Source of the DNA: Demequina sp. NBRC 110057
Lineage (GTDB): Bacteria; Actinomycetota; Actinomycetes; Actinomycetales; Demequinaceae
DNA length: 64,000 nt
Reading direction: 5' to 3'
Assembly: GCF_002090175.1 (NCBI RefSeq)
Contig: NZ_BBRN01000006.1
Span: 310,001-374,000, forward strand
Below, piece by piece: positions 3,385 to 52,091 of this stretch. The notes below the pieces were generated by a model. That model was not told the origin of the DNA, made no database searches, and saw only the letters and a list, made by a program, of their open reading frames with translations. The translations under genes were made by a program, and so were the position numbers. Position 1 is the stretch's first letter. Every line of letters starts with the position of its first letter.

Positions 3385-3981
3385 TCAGGGGGTCCGGCTT
3401 CGCGCCGGGCCCCCTTCTTCATGCCCCGACGCCGCGCCCGTCGCGTCCTCGTCCTGGGCCGTCGCCGCGCCGATGCGCCGCGAGCCGCTCCACGCGGCGA
3501 TCACCACGCCGACGATGATGAGCACGTCACCCACCGAGAAGGTGTTGGAAAGCGGGAGGGGCTCGGGCCACGCGAACACGTCGCCGAGCCACGGCAGGAC
3601 GGGGTCGCTCACGACGGCGGAGTTAGCGAAGTCCGCGCCGCGGTCAATGCCCGCCGCCTCCACCGCTGCCTCCCGGGCGGGCAGCACCCCGCCATTCAGC
3701 GCAATGGTCAGGCCGTTGGAGAACGCGCCGGCACCGACCACCAGCGCCCCCGCGACGTCGCGGTTCAGCCACAGGAAAGCGATCGCGGCGACGTAGGTGA
3801 GCACGTGGACCACCGGGGCGAGGTTCTCCAGCGCGTCGAACTCGATGATGACGATCTGTGCGGCCAGGGCGCCCCAGATCAGCAGCGGCCACCGCCAGCG
3901 ACGCAGCAGCAGACCCGCTGGCCAACGGCCCGCGAACAGAGGCGAGGCCACGGCGAGCAGGCCGAGCGCAAGAATCAGCAT
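3385..3981 (-). CDS. DUF5317-family membrane protein
   Basis: Unknown function. The 198 residues form about five hydrophobic segments. The C-terminal third carries the family-like signature LSNTFSVGDVLIIVG, typical of DUF5317 proteins found next to regulatory genes in Actinobacteria and Firmicutes. It starts 4 bases after the stop of the GGDEF-EAL gene and is therefore co-transcribed with it. GAGG within the end of that gene is its likely ribosome-binding site. The last codons are formed by the terminator stem at 3388-3414. A role with cyclic di-GMP is suggested only by the operon. Confidence 0.8.
   Translation of the reverse strand: MLILALGLLAVASPLFAGRWPAGLLLRRWRWPLLIWGALAAQIVIIEFDALENLAPVVHVLTYVAAIAFLWLNRDVAGALVVGAGAFSNGLTIALNGGVLPAREAAVEAAGIDRGADFANSAVVSDPVLPWLGDVFAWPEPLPLSNTFSVGDVLIIVGVVIAAWSGSRRIGAATAQDEDATGAASGHEEGGPARSRTP
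3388..3414. terminator. Hairpin terminator between convergent genes
   Basis: GGGGGTCCGGC (3388-3398) pairs with GCCGGGCCCCC (3404-3414) over 11 positions with one G-T pair and a 5-base loop, followed by TTCTTC on the + strand. It lies inside the 3' end of the leftward DUF5317 gene, 17 bases after the rightward stop. Confidence 0.8.
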
Positions 3982-3985
3982 GGGG

Positions 3986-6037
3986 TCATCCTCGCCTGTC
4001 GTCCGACTCCTGTGCGAGCCGCGCGTCGATCTGATCCGCGGGCACCGGGCGGCCCAGGTGGTGCCCCTGGCCGATGACGTCGCCGAACGTCATGAGTTCG
4101 CGCGCGGTCTCCTCATCTTCGATGCCCTCGGCGATCACGCGCAGGCCCAGCGCGAGCGCGAGCTCGATGGTGGAGCGAACGATGATGCGGTCGTGGTCCA
4201 CCGACCTGATGTGCGTGACGAAAGACCGGTCGACCTTCAGCTCGTCGATCTCGAGGCGCCGTAGGTAGCCCAGCGAGGCGTTGCCCGTTCCATAGTCATC
4301 GATGGCGATCTCGACGCCCAGTGCACGCAGTCCGCGGATGACCACGTCTGCCCGCACGGCATCGGCCATGATGCCCGTTTCCGTGACCTCCAGCACCAGC
4401 GTATTCGCGGGAACCCGGTGGCGGCCGAGCGCATCGGCCACCTGAGCGGTCAGGGCGAGGTCGGACAGGTGGCGCGCCGAGAGGTTGACGGAGATGCGCA
4501 GGTCGTAGCCCGCGTCGCGCCAGCGAGCGAGGTCCCTCAGGGCCTGGTCAAGCACGAACGCCGTAATGGAAAACACCAGGCCGGAGTTCTCCGCGAGCGG
4601 AATGAAGTCGTCCGGCTGCACGACGCCACGCTCGGGGTGATGCCACCGCACCAGCGCCTCGACGGCGACGGTGCGCCGGTTCGCAAGCGTCACCTGTGGT
4701 TGGTACACGACGTGCAACTGCTTCTCGGAGATGGCGGCGCGAAGGTCGGCGAGGAGTTGAAGTCGCTCAAGCGTGTTGACGTCGAACTCCTGCGAGAACA
4801 GGGAGATGCGGTCGCGCTCAAGCTTGGCGTGATAGAGCGCGATGTCCGAGTGCTTCATGAGGGTCTCGGCGTCGGCGCCGTGCATGGGGGCCACGGCGAC
4901 GCCGGCGCTCGCCCGTACCAGTAGCTCCAGCGCGTCGACCTGGATGGGCGCCTCGAGCGACGACAGGGCGTCGTAGGCGGCGTGACGCGCGGCAGCGAGC
5001 CCGCCGGGGACCACGATCGCGAACTCGTCGCCGCCCAGCCGATGCACGGACGCGCCGGGAGGCACCGCGCCCACCAGCCGGCCCGCCACCTGGCGCAGGA
5101 TGGTGTCTCCCACGGGGTGCCCGAGAGTGTCGTTGAAGTCCTTGAAGTGGTCGAGGTCGATGAGGACCAGGCCGGGTCCGGAAGAACCCGATGCGCGCGA
5201 GCCGGCGAGCGCCTGCGCCAATTCGTGATCGGCCTGGCTGCGATTGCCCAGGCCGGTGAGGGAATCGTGCGTCGCATCAAAGGCGTGACGGGCAGCGGAG
5301 GCGGCGAACAGGTGGGCGGCCACCACGGGGCCGGCCAGGAGGATCAACACCCACGCTCCGTCGGCGGCGATGTAGGCGGCGATGCCGCCAACGCTCAGCA
5401 GCACGATGTGCGTCATGACGAGGTGCTGAGCATCGGAGCTGACGACCACGGAGAAGCGCTGGCCCACGGCGATGGCGACGACGCCCGCCACGAGCATCCA
5501 GTTGACCGCCACCATGGCGATGCCGGCAATGAGGAGTGCCGCCAGGTGCGTGTCGTTCGAGTACAGCGGCTCGGGGAAGCGCACCGCGCCGGCCAGCGAG
5601 GCGTAGACCATGCCGCCCACGAGGACGCTCACCGCGTACTGGGCTGTGTTGAACAGCGACTTGGTGGGGGCGCGACGCTGCAGAAGATCGTCGGTGAGGC
5701 TCGCAATCACCTGGACCACGACGGCGACGCCGATGCCGGCGACGGCGATGAGTGCGAGGATAAACGGCGCCGAGGTGGAGACGGTCCGCGGTTCCGCATT
5801 GCCGAGCACCAGCCGGATCGGCTTCACCTCACCCGCGATGGCGGCCACGGCGAGGAACACGGTGGGCCACAGCAGCCCCGTGTCTCCCACGTGGGACCAC
5901 GGCGTGAGGACAAGCGTGGCAAGGACGCCCAGCACGCCGACCGTGCTGACGGCGCCGACATAGACAGCAAGACGCGAGGGCGATGGGCGCCTCAGGGGCC
6001 GCCCATCGCCCTCGCGAGTGGTGGTGCTTAGTTCCAC
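3986..6037 (-). CDS. Membrane GGDEF-EAL protein (diguanylate cyclase / c-di-GMP phosphodiesterase)
   Basis: Predicted to make or break cyclic di-GMP. The 683 residues start with about eight membrane segments (roughly 23-245, a MASE-type sensor). A GGDEF domain (motif GGDEF intact near residue 336) and an EAL domain follow, with VEALVRW near 459, NLSARHL, DDYGTG near 578 and EGIED. Both catalytic signatures look intact, so it may be bifunctional. The GTG at 6037 overlaps the stop of the upstream 36-residue peptide by 10 bases and lacks a good ribosome-binding site, which suggests translational coupling. A perfect 17-bp hairpin covers codons 8-22. The next in-frame GTG (near 5934) would truncate the first membrane segment, so I prefer 6037. 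Confidence 0.88.
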   Translation of the reverse strand: MELSTTTREGDGRPLRRPSPSRLAVYVGAVSTVGVLGVLATLVLTPWSHVGDTGLLWPTVFLAVAAIAGEVKPIRLVLGNAEPRTVSTSAPFILALIAVAGIGVAVVVQVIASLTDDLLQRRAPTKSLFNTAQYAVSVLVGGMVYASLAGAVRFPEPLYSNDTHLAALLIAGIAMVAVNWMLVAGVVAIAVGQRFSVVVSSDAQHLVMTHIVLLSVGGIAAYIAADGAWVLILLAGPVVAAHLFAASAARHAFDATHDSLTGLGNRSQADHELAQALAGSRASGSSGPGLVLIDLDHFKDFNDTLGHPVGDTILRQVAGRLVGAVPPGASVHRLGGDEFAIVVPGGLAAARHAAYDALSSLEAPIQVDALELLVRASAGVAVAPMHGADAETLMKHSDIALYHAKLERDRISLFSQEFDVNTLERLQLLADLRAAISEKQLHVVYQPQVTLANRRTVAVEALVRWHHPERGVVQPDDFIPLAENSGLVFSITAFVLDQALRDLARWRDAGYDLRISVNLSARHLSDLALTAQVADALGRHRVPANTLVLEVTETGIMADAVRADVVIRGLRALGVEIAIDDYGTGNASLGYLRRLEIDELKVDRSFVTHIRSVDHDRIIVRSTIELALALGLRVIAEGIEDEETARELMTFGDVIGQGHHLGRPVPADQIDARLAQESDDRRG
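5973..6016 (-). promoter_or_regulatory. Perfect 17-bp hairpin at the start of the GGDEF-EAL gene
   Basis: CGCGAGGGCGATGGGCG (5973-5989) and its exact complement (6000-6016) flank a 10-base loop. In the leftward transcript it begins 11 bases after the stop codon of the small peptide gene and is followed by TCTTGCTGTC. It could terminate or attenuate transcription between the peptide and the GGDEF-EAL gene, or control translation. It lies inside the reading frame of the latter if the GTG at 6037 is used. Confidence 0.75.
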
Positions 6038-6138
6038 TTGAAGCCGGCGCCCGCAATGACGGCGACGGCAACGAGGGTGCTCGCGGAGGCCGTCGCGCGG
6101 ACGACCTTGCTGTTGTTGAGAAGGTTCCACTTCTTCAT
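6028..6138 (-). CDS. Small single-span membrane peptide, 36 residues
   Basis: Function unknown. The ATG at 6138 has an excellent ribosome-binding site, GGGAG, 6 bases upstream. The product starts MKKWNLLNN, has a basic stretch (KVVR) and one hydrophobic segment at about residues 18-32 (SASTLVAVAVIAGAG), and ends GFKWN, so KWN occurs at both ends. There is no cleavage motif that clearly makes it a signal peptide. Its stop overlaps the GTG of the GGDEF-EAL gene by 10 bases, and a strong hairpin follows. The arrangement suggests a leader or partner peptide of the cyclic di-GMP enzyme, possibly expressed at a higher level. Coding is supported by the ribosome-binding site and by the membrane-peptide character only. 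Confidence 0.6.
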   Translation of the reverse strand: MKKWNLLNNSKVVRATASASTLVAVAVIAGAGFKWN

Positions 6139-6351
6139 CGGTGACTCCCGTCCGCTCGGGACGACGTGCGCGGCTATGAGCCACCCGTGACGATCCGCCT
6201 GCCTCGGCGTAGGCCGGGTTGCGGTCGTGCCATCGTCCACGAAGGTGACGACCGCCGGTCGACGGCCGCAGTCCCCATCATCCCCGATGCAACGGCCGTT
6301 GGGAAGACACGATTTGGCAACCGCGGGGCCGGAACCAGGGATTTCGCGCGA

Positions 6352-6393: not shown

Positions 6394-9300
6394 CTACAGC
6401 GCGCGCCGGCGCGACCTCCACCCCAGCCCCGCGCCGAGCGCGACCAGGAGCGCGGCCGCGACGGCCGCCGTGATCCAGGCATCGGAGGGGCCCGTCGTCG
6501 GCAACGAACCGTCCGCGGCCGTGACGACGAGCGTCGCGGATCCCGAGATCCCCGAGGTGGCGCCTTCCGCGACGAGCGTGTGCTCGCCCAGGGGGGCATC
6601 CGTCGGGATGGCCAGGGTGACCGCCACCGCACCGTCGGCATCGGCCGTCACCGCGCCGAGCACGATCGGGTCCGAGTGAAGCGTGAACACGACGCGCTCA
6701 CCGGGGGCAAAGCCCCCGCCTTCCACGCGCAGGGTGCCACCGACCCCGACCCGGTCGACGTCGAGGCTGAGCGTCGCGGAATCCGCCGGCTCGTCGTCGC
6801 CGGACGAGTCTGCACCCGAGGAACCATCGCCGGTTCCACCCCCGGACGCGTTGCCGGAGCCGCCGCTGCCGCCGGTCCCGCTGCCGTCACTGGAACCAGA
6901 ACCGGAACCATTGCCGGAGCCATCACCCGAGCCATCGCCGTCATCGGCCGTGACCGTGACCTCGCGGACCTCGGACACCGTCGAGCCGCCGTGCTCATCG
7001 GAGGCCACCATAAACCACGAGTGGGTCCCCTCACCGGGCTCCCAACCCGTCGACACGGTGGCGCCGCTCGCGACGCCCTCAAAGCTCGCGATGGACTCAT
7101 CGCTCAGCGCGTCCGCGCGGAAGGAGTCCGTGGCGAGGACCTTGGTGCGCACGTCGATCCCGAGGGTGTCGTAGCTCACCGTGAAGTCCTGGTGCTCGTC
7201 CTCCAGCGTGGAGTCCTCCGCGTTGTAGTCCTCGAGGTAGTCCGAGTAGGTACGGACGTGCAGCGTCTCGGACTCGTTGTCGAAGTGCAGCAGGCGCATG
7301 TAGCCCTCGCCGCCGTTGGGCAGGCCCTGGTAGTCGAACAGCATCGACGTCACCGTGCGGTCGTCCACACCGTCGCCATCGTCGTCAAACGAGTCATAGC
7401 GCGTGTAGGCGTCGTGATAGTGGCCGCTGGTCACCGCGCGCACGTTGGCGTTGGTGGCGACTACCTCGTCCATGATGCGCTGGGGCACCGGGCCCAGGCC
7501 ACCCGTCGTGAGCATGAACTCGTGGAGCTGTACGAAGGCGACACGCTCGGGGTACTGGGCCAACACCTCGTTCATCCAGTCGATCTGCTCGTCTTCGGGT
7601 CCCCATCCCATGTAGAGGAACAGGAAGTCGATGCCTCCGGCGGTGATGAGGTCGTAGTGCCCGCGGTTGTCGAGGTGGTCTCCTCCCCACCACGGGTTGT
7701 CCTCGTAGCGCGACGCGCCAAACCACGTGCTGTAGTCGGTGTAGTCGTTGGTGGCCTGGTAGACGTCATGGTTTCCCGCGAGGACGCCGTATGGAAGCCC
7801 GGCGTCATCCAGCATCGCGTACGCCTCATCGGCACGCTCCCACTGGTCCTGCGCCGACGAGACGTTGACGATGTCGCCGTTGTGCGCCAGGTACTGCAGG
7901 TTGATGTCCTCGCGCACCTCGAGGAGGTACTCGTGGATCGACAGCTGGCGGTCGTAGATGTTCTCGTATCCGCTCACGTTGTCCTGGTTGTAATACTGCG
8001 TGTCCGACTCCCACGCCAGGGTGAAGTCGTACTCGTCACGGGGGGTGTCCTCCGGGTGGTTCGGCTCAATGATCGACTCGCGCGTCGACTGGTCGTCGCC
8101 CGCGTAGCCCTCCGAGTGCTGAACCAGGGCGGTCACGATGCCGTCCTGCGAGTAGTCGGAGGTCGCGACGACACCCTCCAGGACCACGTCGGCGAGTTCA
8201 CCCTCGTCCGGATCGGTCACCACGCGGTCGATCTCCACCCACTCCTGCAGGGCAGGGTCGAGGACATACAGCAGGACCTTGGCGTCGGCGTTGGCCTGCC
8301 CGTCCCAGCGCAGCCGCACGTCGCCGTCCTGGTCGCCCACCTCGGCCTCGAGCAGGACGTAGGGGAGCTTCGCGTCAGAAGCGGTGGTCATCGCGTCGCC
8401 GTCGAGCGTCGCGATGGCCTCGGCGTCCGCGGCGCTGATCTCCGTGGCCTCGGTGCGCGCTACATCAAGCGCGACCGTGGCCTCGCCGGTCGACACGGTG
8501 GACTCATCCCCCACCTCGAGCTCGTTGCCCTGGAAGAACTCCACGGCGAGGCTGTCGTCCGTGGGGTCGGTCACCGTCGCCGTCAGCGGCACGCTTCCCG
8601 TCGCGGTCTCGCCATCACCGGGCGCCAGCGCAGTGATCTCGGGGTTCTCCACCGGAATGGTGAAGGGCAACGTGACCTCGGTGGTGTTTCCCACCTCATC
8701 GGTCGCGGTGATAGCCAGCGTGTGGTCACCCGCCTGGTCCTCGTCGAGCGACGAGACCGTCTCGGGGAAGTAGATCCGACGCCCATCCAGGCGCGCCTCC
8801 GTCGAGGCGAGACCAGAGCCCGCGTCAACGATGTCCGCGTCGAGCTCGCGCTCGCCGTGCACCACCTCGCCTGACGTCACGGTCGACGTCACCGTCGGGG
8901 CGGTGTTGTCGACGGTGACCGTGGCCTCGGCGCTGTCGTCGCCATCGACCGCGGCAACGGTGTGGTCGCCGTCGTCGACGGTCGTGGTGTCCCACGCGTA
9001 CGCGTGGCCCGTGAAGGCGTCATCCGGCGCCACGAAGGTGGCCTCGAGGTAGTCGACGGCCGTACCGGAATCACCGAGGTAGATCCAGGCGTCGGGGTCA
9101 TAAGCCTCCTGCGGACGTAGCGTGCGCCCGTCGGGCAGGATGAGGCGCAGGTTGGAGACGTTGAAGTTGTCGTTGTTCTCGTTGAGGTCGATCTCGGGCG
9201 CGGCCTTCGTGCCGGCATAGATGCGCACCGAGAACGATTCGCCGGGGTTGACCTTGTCGAGCGGAAGCTCCGTCGCGACGGTCACCTCGCGTGCGTAGTA

Positions 9301-11664
9301 GCCCTCCGAGAAGATCAGCAACTCTTCGCCGTCCATGACGACGCCGTTGCGGAAGAACGCATCGGTGGCGGTCGCCTCGAAAGCGAACACCGGGGCATCC
9401 TCGAGTTCCGCGAAGGTCTCGACCTCGGCACCGTCCACGCTCAGGGCGAGCGTGTCCGAGACGTCATCCCCCGATGCGGAGACGACGGTGGTGCCGCTCA
9501 CGTAGTCACCATCCGCGACGTTCAGGCGCAGGGGGTTCACCTCGGTGTTCGTGTCGATGGTCGCCTCGGCGGTGGTGACGGCATGGAAGCCGTCCGACGC
9601 CGTGAAGCGGTAGGTGAACTCCCTTTTGCCGATCGTGTCAGCGGCGGGGATCTCCACGGAGTAGGTGCCGTCCTCGCCCGGGGTGAGGTTGTACTCGACG
9701 TCGACGCCGTCGGCGGCCGAGCGGAGCGTCAGGGTCGCAGTGCGCACCGAGACGTCGTCCGTGATGGCGGCCTGCACGGTCAGAGCCTCGCCGGGGGTGA
9801 AGGTGGGACCCGTGAGGTCGGCGATGACGGGCGCGTTGCCCGCGGCCGGGGCGGCCGCGAGGCCGTCGTGAACCTGATCGGAGGTCACCACGCCGGGTGA
9901 GGCGGCAGCGGTGCCGAGCTTCACCTGGAGCGCGTCCACTCCATCGGCGGCCACGCCGTACTGGATGCCCTGGTCGGGCAGCGTGTCGTCGCCGCTGTCG
10001 TTGTACTCGGCGGCGTTGATCGACACGCCCGTGTTGGTGAGGAGCTCGATCGAGCGGCGTCCGCCGTTTGCCATTCCGCCGACCGTGATCTCGAACAGGC
10101 TCTCGTTCTCGATGAGCTCGGTCCCAAAGTAGGCGTTGAAGTCGGCGGCGGTCAGCGCGGTATTGCCACCGTTCTTAATCCACAGGACCACGGTGCCTCC
10201 GGCGGGCACCGAGCCCGCACGCACGTCGGTGGGCCACAGGGTCGAGCTCGTGATGGCGCCATTCACGTCCAGGTAGTTGTAGCGCGCGGAGATGTCCTCC
10301 CACGCCACGGGCGCGTCGGTCGGGTTGTAGACCTCGATGAACTCGTAGCCGTCCGCACTGTTCACGTTGCCGCTGTCGGGCAGCAGTTCAGTCACCTGGA
10401 GCAGCGACGTCGTGAGGTCGGGGTCAGTGGCTCGGCTGAGCGTCACGTCATACGCCGATGCGTCGAGGACTCCCGGGGTCGGCGCGCCCGCGGAGGTGGT
10501 GACGGGCTGCGCGGTCTCGCCGATGATGCTGGGGACCCCGAAGTGGGCCGACAGGTCGTTGCCGACGTCCGCGGCGCCGTAGTAGGCGTCCGCCACCACC
10601 GTGCCGGCCGCGTCGAGGAGACGGATCCCGCGCTCGCCACCGTTGGCGAAGGCCCCCTGGCCGTACACCTGGGCGACGAGCACCTCGTCGGACAGGCCGT
10701 AGTAGCTGCGGAACTGCTCCTCCGTCAGGTCGGTCGCGGCATCGTCGCCGATGTTCCACAGCACCACCGCGCGGCCTGCGGGGACGATGGTGTCTCCCAC
10801 CATGGTGAGCCCGACCGCGCTTCCGGCCCCGTAGTACTCGAGCGAGTACCCGGCGTCCGCAAGGTCGATGTCCTCATCGGTGAGGTTCGCGACCTCCACG
10901 TATTCGTACGTGTCCGCGCCGGAGTGGTTCGCCATGATCTCGGACACGACCACGGGCCACTCCGCGGCGACATCGTCGGCCACCGTGATCGCGGGGATGG
11001 AGGGTGCAGGGACCGGCTCCAGGAGGGAGGCATCGGCCACACCCGGCGACGGCACGGCGCGAGACTGACGGATCTCCAGGGTCGGAGAGGCGACGTCGTC
11101 CGCCACACCGAAGACTGCCGAGGTATCGGTGGAGACGTCGTCGGCCGAGTAAGTGGCCTCGGAAATCGTGGCGCCGGTGCCGTCGAGGACGCGGATGCCG
11201 CGGCCGCCGCCATTGGCCATGCCCGCCTGTCCGGTGGCGCGAATAACCTGGTAGTCGCCCGTACTCGCACCGAGTGCCGCAAAGGTCGCACGGAAGTCGG
11301 CCTCGTCGTAGGCGAAGCTGTCAAGCGTGCCGTCGGCGGTCGTGTAACTCACCCAGAACGCCACCGACTCACCCGCGGCGAGCGAGATCCCCTCGGGAAT
11401 GTCGAGGTCGACGGGGCTGGAGGCTCCGAAGTACTGCAGTGATACTCCGGCCGCATCGAGGTCGATCGGGACATCGGCGGTGTTCGTCACCTCGAAGAAC
11501 TCGAACTCGTCCGCGCCGGCCGTGTTGGGGACGATCTCGGTCACCATGAGGCTTGGCGGCACTGCGTCGTCGGCGGCGGCGGCGGGGACCACGGCGAGCG
11601 AGGTCACGGCGACCAAGGCCGTCGCGGCCGCGGTCATCCGGGGCGCTTTTCTGGGAGGGGTCAC
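6394..11664 (-). CDS. LPXTG-anchored surface protein with lamin-tail, Ig-like and metallophosphoesterase domains
   Basis: Very large secreted wall protein, 1756 residues. The GTG at 11664 has GGAG 6 bases upstream and opens a signal peptide (hydrophobic TALVAVTSLAVVPAAAA). Three lamin-tail domains begin near residues 40, 235 and 420 (repeated T/SEI-x-N and YEFIEV/YEYVEV cores). Ig-like or bacterial adhesion repeats run to about 1150. A calcineurin-like metallophosphoesterase domain occupies about 1210-1480 (ESDTQYY, HNGDIVN, AGNHD, SGHYHD metal motifs). A Gly/Ser/Asp linker near 1590-1630 and a last Ig-like domain follow. The C-terminus is a sortase signal: LPTTG near 1718, a hydrophobic span and RSRRR. 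It probably hydrolyses phosphoesters or nucleic acid outside the cell. No sortase gene is nearby. Confidence 0.9.
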   Translation of the reverse strand: MTPPRKAPRMTAAATALVAVTSLAVVPAAAADDAVPPSLMVTEIVPNTAGADEFEFFEVTNTADVPIDLDAAGVSLQYFGASSPVDLDIPEGISLAAGESVAFWVSYTTADGTLDSFAYDEADFRATFAALGASTGDYQVIRATGQAGMANGGGRGIRVLDGTGATISEATYSADDVSTDTSAVFGVADDVASPTLEIRQSRAVPSPGVADASLLEPVPAPSIPAITVADDVAAEWPVVVSEIMANHSGADTYEYVEVANLTDEDIDLADAGYSLEYYGAGSAVGLTMVGDTIVPAGRAVVLWNIGDDAATDLTEEQFRSYYGLSDEVLVAQVYGQGAFANGGERGIRLLDAAGTVVADAYYGAADVGNDLSAHFGVPSIIGETAQPVTTSAGAPTPGVLDASAYDVTLSRATDPDLTTSLLQVTELLPDSGNVNSADGYEFIEVYNPTDAPVAWEDISARYNYLDVNGAITSSTLWPTDVRAGSVPAGGTVVLWIKNGGNTALTAADFNAYFGTELIENESLFEITVGGMANGGRRSIELLTNTGVSINAAEYNDSGDDTLPDQGIQYGVAADGVDALQVKLGTAAASPGVVTSDQVHDGLAAAPAAGNAPVIADLTGPTFTPGEALTVQAAITDDVSVRTATLTLRSAADGVDVEYNLTPGEDGTYSVEIPAADTIGKREFTYRFTASDGFHAVTTAEATIDTNTEVNPLRLNVADGDYVSGTTVVSASGDDVSDTLALSVDGAEVETFAELEDAPVFAFEATATDAFFRNGVVMDGEELLIFSEGYYAREVTVATELPLDKVNPGESFSVRIYAGTKAAPEIDLNENNDNFNVSNLRLILPDGRTLRPQEAYDPDAWIYLGDSGTAVDYLEATFVAPDDAFTGHAYAWDTTTVDDGDHTVAAVDGDDSAEATVTVDNTAPTVTSTVTSGEVVHGERELDADIVDAGSGLASTEARLDGRRIYFPETVSSLDEDQAGDHTLAITATDEVGNTTEVTLPFTIPVENPEITALAPGDGETATGSVPLTATVTDPTDDSLAVEFFQGNELEVGDESTVSTGEATVALDVARTEATEISAADAEAIATLDGDAMTTASDAKLPYVLLEAEVGDQDGDVRLRWDGQANADAKVLLYVLDPALQEWVEIDRVVTDPDEGELADVVLEGVVATSDYSQDGIVTALVQHSEGYAGDDQSTRESIIEPNHPEDTPRDEYDFTLAWESDTQYYNQDNVSGYENIYDRQLSIHEYLLEVREDINLQYLAHNGDIVNVSSAQDQWERADEAYAMLDDAGLPYGVLAGNHDVYQATNDYTDYSTWFGASRYEDNPWWGGDHLDNRGHYDLITAGGIDFLFLYMGWGPEDEQIDWMNEVLAQYPERVAFVQLHEFMLTTGGLGPVPQRIMDEVVATNANVRAVTSGHYHDAYTRYDSFDDDGDGVDDRTVTSMLFDYQGLPNGGEGYMRLLHFDNESETLHVRTYSDYLEDYNAEDSTLEDEHQDFTVSYDTLGIDVRTKVLATDSFRADALSDESIASFEGVASGATVSTGWEPGEGTHSWFMVASDEHGGSTVSEVREVTVTADDGDGSGDGSGNGSGSGSSDGSGTGGSGGSGNASGGGTGDGSSGADSSGDDEPADSATLSLDVDRVGVGGTLRVEGGGFAPGERVVFTLHSDPIVLGAVTADADGAVAVTLAIPTDAPLGEHTLVAEGATSGISGSATLVVTAADGSLPTTGPSDAWITAAVAAALLVALGAGLGWRSRRRAL

Positions 11665-11908
11665 GTGAGGCTCCAGGTCGGGTGACGCAGGTGGGCGCCA
11701 CTGGCTGCGGGGGCGTCGGCACCGGCAAAAACCCACCGGGTAGGGCGGTGCCGTCACGAGTCAAGCGCAGCCCCGGCGCGGTCTAGACCAGATATGAGAA
11801 CGTTCAGCGCCCAGCAAGCGAGACGTCACCCAACGTTCACCCCGTCGGGCGAAGTGCCGGTTCGCCGAGCGCGGCGCTAGGGTCGAGGCCGAAGGAAGGA
11901 TCCCTCCC

Positions 11909-33947: not shown

Positions 33948-33951
33948 CCGT

Positions 33952-33967
33952 CGTTTCACGTGAAACA
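33952..33967. promoter_or_regulatory. parS site 1
   Basis: CGTTTCACGTGAAACA: the ParB-binding consensus TGTTTCACGTGAAACA with one mismatch at the first base. Between jag and rsmG. Confidence 0.9.
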
Positions 33968-33981
33968 ACGCGGGGAGAGTC

Positions 33982-35888: not shown

Positions 35889-36028
35889 GGCGCGTTGGGG
35901 CGCGCATTCGGTGTCCATGGTGGCCTGATGCGCGCCGTGTATCAGCGTCCGCGCCACGGTCCCCGGACGCCCGCGAGGTGCACGAGAGGCGGTAGAGTCG
36001 TGAGTCTGACGGTGTCACCACGAGCCGA

Positions 36029-36044
36029 TGTTTCACGTGAAACA
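36029..36044. promoter_or_regulatory. parS site 6
   Basis: Exact TGTTTCACGTGAAACA, ending 23 bases before the parA start codon; ParB bound here could repress parAB. Confidence 0.97.
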
Positions 36045-36067
36045 GCGATCACTCGGAAGGAGAGTGC

Positions 36068-52046: not shown

Positions 52047-52091
52047 CACGAGGCCCGGATCACCCCCACACTGGGTGATCCGGGCCTCGTG
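52047..52091. terminator. Perfect 19-bp bidirectional terminator
   Basis: CACGAGGCCCGGATCACCC (52047-52065) and its exact complement (52073-52091) with a 7-base loop, between the convergent SDR and ino1 genes. No T-run; the stem is exceptionally stable. Confidence 0.85.

Follow-up and report, generated by a model that had tools for sequence, protein, structure and literature searches.

A conserved 36-aa membrane peptide is encoded in the analysed window (the whole stretch of 64 kb of Demequina sp. NBRC 110057 DNA); its gene is coupled to the following GGDEF-EAL gene, a hairpin with covarying arms lies at the junction, and the peptide is paired with the sensor domain of the next gene product rather than with its c-di-GMP output. 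The recurrence of the peptide, the hairpin, and the sensor across many actinobacteria points to an undescribed peptide–sensor signalling module.

The peptide gene occupies positions 6028..6138 of the minus strand, stop included, and encodes MKKWNLLNNSKVVRATASASTLVAVAVIAGAGFKWN, with the ATG start at 6138 and the frame ending at 6028. The ribosome-binding site GGGAG is read from the sequence at 6145..6149 (minus strand); the match to AGGAGG is 4–5 of 6 at 39 of 40 peptide starts, whereas ahead of the enzyme GTG it is mostly 3 of 6. Residues M1, K3, W4, T21, A31, G32, K34, and W35 are invariant in 30 Demequina peptides, and pN of the peptide is 0.24 compared with 0.61 and 0.68 in two adjacent poorly constrained stretches. 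Members of the family have a basic N-terminus, a single hydrophobic helix, and a C-terminal GA-x-K-W; several carry Pro after the conserved Ala (GAPFKW, GAPRKW, GAPKKF). Comparison with Pfam and NCBIfam, known pheromone families of the AgrD and SHP type included, yields no family match, and nothing on the GA-x-KW peptide was found in the open-access literature; the 36-aa peptide is a member of a small-protein family missed by annotation. A strict GA-x-KW scan of the 64-kb window returns the known peptide only, and the reversed control returns none.

The sensor enzyme (3986..6037, minus strand), delineated by its frame, Pfam, AlphaFold, and Foldseek, consists of an S-component-like membrane domain (approximately residues 20–250) followed by GGDEF and EAL domains (Pfam E 7.4e-37 and 1.7e-67, respectively). 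Its translation keeps the GGDEF (RLGGDEFAI) and EAL (AVEALVRW) motifs, and the protein is a predicted c-di-GMP enzyme. The frame is open from a GTG at 6037, so that the enzyme start and the peptide stop overlap by the 10 nt GTGGAACTAA (6028..6037, minus strand); this GTG derives from the invariant Lys-Trp codons AAG-TGG of the peptide. The overlap length is 10 nt in nearly all relatives and 13 nt in G033. In 37 of 40 loci the enzyme frame is open from the GTG, with the start ahead of the hairpin; when the length of a locus has changed, the frame is kept in 8 of 11 cases, with one third expected by chance and the lineages not all independent. The frame is broken in the other three (G017, G039, G043), where the enzymes must start elsewhere or the assemblies contain errors. 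Besides the GTG, no upstream start is common to the relatives. A start downstream of the hairpin was considered and rejected, as no conserved start codon is found there and several genomes have none at all before the first membrane helix. Translational coupling of the peptide and the enzyme is likely, because the peptide has a good Shine–Dalgarno sequence, whereas the one ahead of the GTG is weak or lacking.

The junction hairpin (5973..6016, minus strand; arms 6016–6000 and 5989–5973), recognized as an inverted repeat, by a fold test, and by covariation, has 17 bp, 100% complementary, and a 10-nt loop; its base begins 11 nt past the peptide stop, and it covers enzyme codons 8–22 counted from the GTG. 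None of 200 dinucleotide shuffles folds as stably as the region (z −3.4), and besides this hairpin the 64 kb contain just one other perfect gapped inverted repeat of at least 17 bp. In 29 relatives, compared without gaps by protein position, in-register pairing is 90.1% over the 17 positions, versus 39–55% when one arm is slid by 1–6 nt and 72% when the 3′ arm is taken from another species; pairing this high is not attained in any of 5000 permutations. Pair 36–51 covaries (C-G in 16, G-C in 13), as does pair 33–54 (C-G in 15, T-A in 9, T-G in 4), and both occupy third codon positions in both arms. Such covariation of third-codon-position bases argues for selection on the RNA helix, not on the protein alone. 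An exception is G037, with a poor, largely missing helix and three tandem peptides. Elsewhere in the window, a further perfect gapped inverted repeat of 19 bp with a 7-nt loop lies at 52047–52091; two palindromes GTTTCACGTGAAAC (33949–33970 and 36026–36047) look like parS sites, which suggests that this region is near the replication origin.

The elements reported in the preliminary description of this locus, that is, the peptide with its ribosome-binding site, the 10-base overlap, and the 17-bp hairpin in codons 8–22, were all recovered, and the peptide, overlap, and hairpin are kept in relatives with compensatory changes, the enzyme start preceding the hairpin at the 37 loci given above; neither of the two outcomes named there as refuting was thus observed. 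The same description had proposed an attenuator or translational switch, and, on the sequence evidence, an attenuator is the likeliest reading of the hairpin, weakened by the poor U-tract in Demequina. A G+C-rich stem-loop, one of the criteria for an intrinsic terminator, is present at the junction, and a terminator consensus scan finds no U-tract terminator there; in Demequina hairpins, T makes up 30% of the 10 nt after the stem versus 15% before it. For 14 of 21 distant peptides, a hairpin that outperforms dinucleotide-shuffled controls (p 0.05) lies within 90 nt of the stop, and for stems of at least 9 bp T makes up 39% of the 8 nt after the stem versus 18% before it; at the peptide–sensor junction of G074 (L227), a 19-bp perfect stem is followed by TTTTT, a textbook intrinsic terminator. 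The U-tract is clear in some distant relatives only. As T enrichment is weaker in Demequina and the consensus scan gives no terminator, an additional factor may be required for termination in this genus; alternatively, the hairpin may act by pausing the polymerase or protecting the peptide mRNA. At the galE–galT junction of Escherichia coli, a hairpin located at the end of the upstream cistron makes RNA polymerase pause and shields the 3′ end, and failed initiation of the next gene lets transcription end in a Rho-dependent manner (PMC9239205). The hairpin here is likewise situated where the upstream cistron ends; however, the galE–galT hairpin lies between two enzymes, and the present one within the second coding region.

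The peptide gene is preceded by a conserved structured 5′ leader RNA of 143 nt (6139..6281, minus strand), defined by covariation and a covariance model. Its long-range stem (6159..6238, minus strand) pairs GGACGATG (6238–6231) with CGTCGTCC (6166–6159). The two helices of the leader show both-side changes at 13 of 16 pairs, and the covariation score is above 500 of 500 shuffles. The covariance model finds a single strong copy, always at the peptide locus, in the 38 peptide-bearing genomes (G032 has the weakest, E 0.003), and a Demequinaceae MAG has one copy as well; elsewhere in the genomes the matches are weak, and those followed up (G040, G024, G027) have no peptide. Comparison with Rfam reveals no known RNA family, and for the leader no match to c-di-GMP or other riboswitches; the leader is a candidate cis-regulatory RNA. 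The upstream neighbour of the peptide gene (6394–11757, minus strand) encodes a protein of 1787 aa that looks secreted, has lamin-tail and metallophosphoesterase domains, and ends in an anchor-like C-terminus.

The peptide and the orthologous enzyme are found together in 38 of 44 Demequina genomes and are both absent from six (G007, G018, G022, G036, G038, and G040; the nominal peptide match in G038, E 0.57, was left out of the count). Contigs matched by the peptide are nearly all from Demequina. The same arrangement of peptide, overlap, and hairpin is seen in Cellulomonas sp. APG4 and in a Demequinaceae MAG, while in an actinomycetote MAG the order is two tandem peptides, hairpin, sensor. When 396 Actinomycetota genomes are searched with a profile built from 15 diverse peptides, many further short frames across the phylum are matched. 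A DUF5317 gene, located by a separate search, lies within 3 kb of 24 of the 38 independent matches (those outside the profile-building set, E up to 0.02), and within the same distance of 23 of 30 short-frame matches versus 3 of 29 long-frame ones. A search with the sensor membrane domain alone gives 16 loci beyond the genus; in 13 of them a peptide of the GA-x-KW type lies at most 420 nt upstream, and the other three have no recognisable peptide. Several loci have tandem peptides per sensor. At L201 (G561:C142:600-5200), an array of approximately six related small peptides, with DUF5317 genes in between, adjoins a probable sensor gene; at L062, L063, L064, and L065, two to four sensor enzyme paralogues stand in tandem, just one of them following a peptide.

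The genes after distant peptides have a common MASE9-like membrane domain and differing outputs: GGDEF-EAL in L190, L193, L196, and L199, and histidine kinase (HisKA/HATPase) in L189, L194, L195, L200, L202, and L203. Since members of the peptide family precede GGDEF-EAL proteins as well as histidine kinases, all carrying one kind of sensor domain, the peptide is tied to the sensor domain and not to the c-di-GMP output. The preliminary description had seen a switch for cyclic di-GMP enzyme synthesis; a link specific to c-di-GMP is not supported. Its suggestion of a partner fits both the co-occurrence (38 of 38) and the peptide–sensor pairing far outside the genus, while its other option, a mere leader, is not supported, as the amino acids of the peptide stay conserved also at loci lacking an overlap with the downstream gene.

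The sensor of the window scores 17.0 bits against Pfam MASE9, under the gathering cut-off of 24.3, which some distant relatives pass. The AlphaFold model of its membrane domain (pLDDT 79.8, pTM 0.79) matches ECF S components, namely TmRibU, ThiT, the biotin S component, and a transition-metal transporter component. For TmRibU, Foldseek gives probability 1.00 and TM 0.65 by target; the E-value is weak (0.03), hence the match rests on the probability and TM. A six-helix ECF S-component fold is tentatively predicted for the membrane domain; receptors in which a domain of this fold is joined to a GGDEF, EAL, or kinase domain have been reported (Partipilo and Slotboom, 2024; PMC11109136). Similar to these 5TMR-type receptors, the proteins considered here combine a predicted S-component-like domain with a GGDEF, EAL, or histidine-kinase output; however, the published family is 5TM-5TMR_LYT, the present sensor resembles Pfam MASE9 in sequence and comes with a separate small peptide. 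Quorum sensing and small partner proteins are both absent from the main text of that paper, according to a term search. The DUF5317 (PF17248) membrane protein gene (3385..3981, minus strand), directly downstream of the sensor enzyme, is the third gene of the module in Demequina and adjoins most module members. An LspA-like peptide-processing protease, considered for DUF5317 from its LGD and FSVGD motifs, is unsupported, because no fold in the PDB, protease-like or other, matches the DUF5317 model. In the open-access literature searched, no paper was found that deals with DUF5317 or with a sensor role of MASE9, and a lead from Thermotoga TM0504 was of no use.

Our first choice for the module, to which we give somewhat less than an even chance, is that the peptide serves the sensor as a membrane partner or intramembrane ligand and is overproduced relative to it by means of the junction; the attenuation, the excess of peptide, and the physical interaction are the parts that we infer. 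The two or three genes (peptide, sensor, and the DUF5317 neighbour) would form a signalling module, in which the peptide would be a membrane-embedded ligand-like or accessory helix on the S-component-fold domain of the next gene product, produced in large excess over the sensor, with the ratio set at the gene junction. The excess is proposed because the hairpin would attenuate read-through and the sensor has no ribosome-binding site of its own: the sensor GTG would rely on ribosomes finishing the peptide, and the strong hairpin right after the peptide stop would end, pause, or process most transcripts, leaving a dominant peptide-only mRNA and few transcripts that reach the sensor. Peptide occupancy of the sensor would then tune GGDEF-EAL here and the histidine kinase in other lineages. 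Against this partner role stand the negative terminator scan at the hairpin, with T after the stem at just 30% in Demequina, the three broken GTG frames, the largely missing hairpin of G037, and the three of 16 outside sensors that lack a recognisable peptide.

Small membrane proteins that regulate sensor kinases include MgrB and SafA, both acting on PhoQ. What they share with the present peptide is a single helix, a length of approximately 30–50 aa, and a presumed action on a membrane sensor; to our knowledge, MgrB and SafA have no sequence relation to the GA-x-KW peptide. Unlike them, the present peptide is tied to its sensor by the overlap and the hairpin, and is kept with one sensor domain phylum-wide.

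The second choice, plausible but doubtful, is an exported signal: the helix would cross the membrane, release or cleavage would occur near the conserved GA, and the x-K-W tail would be sensed outside by the S-component pocket. This would amount to peptide quorum sensing feeding into a c-di-GMP or two-component system, with DUF5317 perhaps serving in processing or export; the hairpin and coupling might serve the same excess of peptide. Consistent with export are the conserved C-terminal GA-x-KW, the tandem, slightly different peptides per sensor, which are signal-like rather than subunit-like, the sensor domain common to kinases and c-di-GMP enzymes, the binding of small ligands from outside by S-component folds (PMC11109136), and the constant DUF5317 neighbour; however, the Pro that follows the conserved Ala in several members would as a rule prevent cleavage by signal peptidase I, no protease or other PDB fold resembles the DUF5317 model, and the helix and the N-terminus of the peptide are conserved too. 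Peptide quorum-sensing pairs such as AgrD–AgrC and SHP–Rgg likewise have a small hydrophobic peptide beside its receptor (here putative), sometimes in tandem copies; in contrast, the peptide here has no Pfam or NCBIfam match and no recognised processing enzyme.

It is improbable that the peptide belongs to an independent small gene with an ordinary terminator, an antimicrobial, stress, or other job, and a downstream sensor read by leakage. Hairpins past distant peptides are indeed terminator-like, sometimes with a T run, and peptides also adjoin DUF5317, but the strict co-occurrence with the sensor in the genus and the conserved 10-nt overlap with a sensor start lacking a Shine–Dalgarno sequence argue against it. 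A leader switch, in which peptide translation decides hairpin formation in the style of an amino-acid attenuator and the peptide product has no role, is very improbable: a ribosome at the peptide stop would reach the hairpin base, and the peptide ribosome-binding site is strong, but residues are conserved along the peptide, also in lineages without the sensor overlap, the peptide has no run of one codon type, and copies occur in tandem. Hardly credible is an action of the inverted repeat as DNA, e.g., as an operator palindrome, as the repeat, although perfect and gapped, changes its arms between species with pairing kept, G-C to C-G flips included, as expected of an RNA helix and not of one regulator site.

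It is conceivable, if rather unlikely, that the GA-x-KW peptides are an undescribed phylum-wide signal for S-component-fold receptors with c-di-GMP or two-component output, the hairpin fixing the ratio. The locus adds an unannotated small-protein family and a junction hairpin inside coding DNA with covariation evidence, and the peptide–sensor pair is open to a simple genetic test. Few membrane sensors fused to GGDEF-EAL domains have a known ligand; the coupled conserved peptide is a concrete candidate for such a ligand or subunit.
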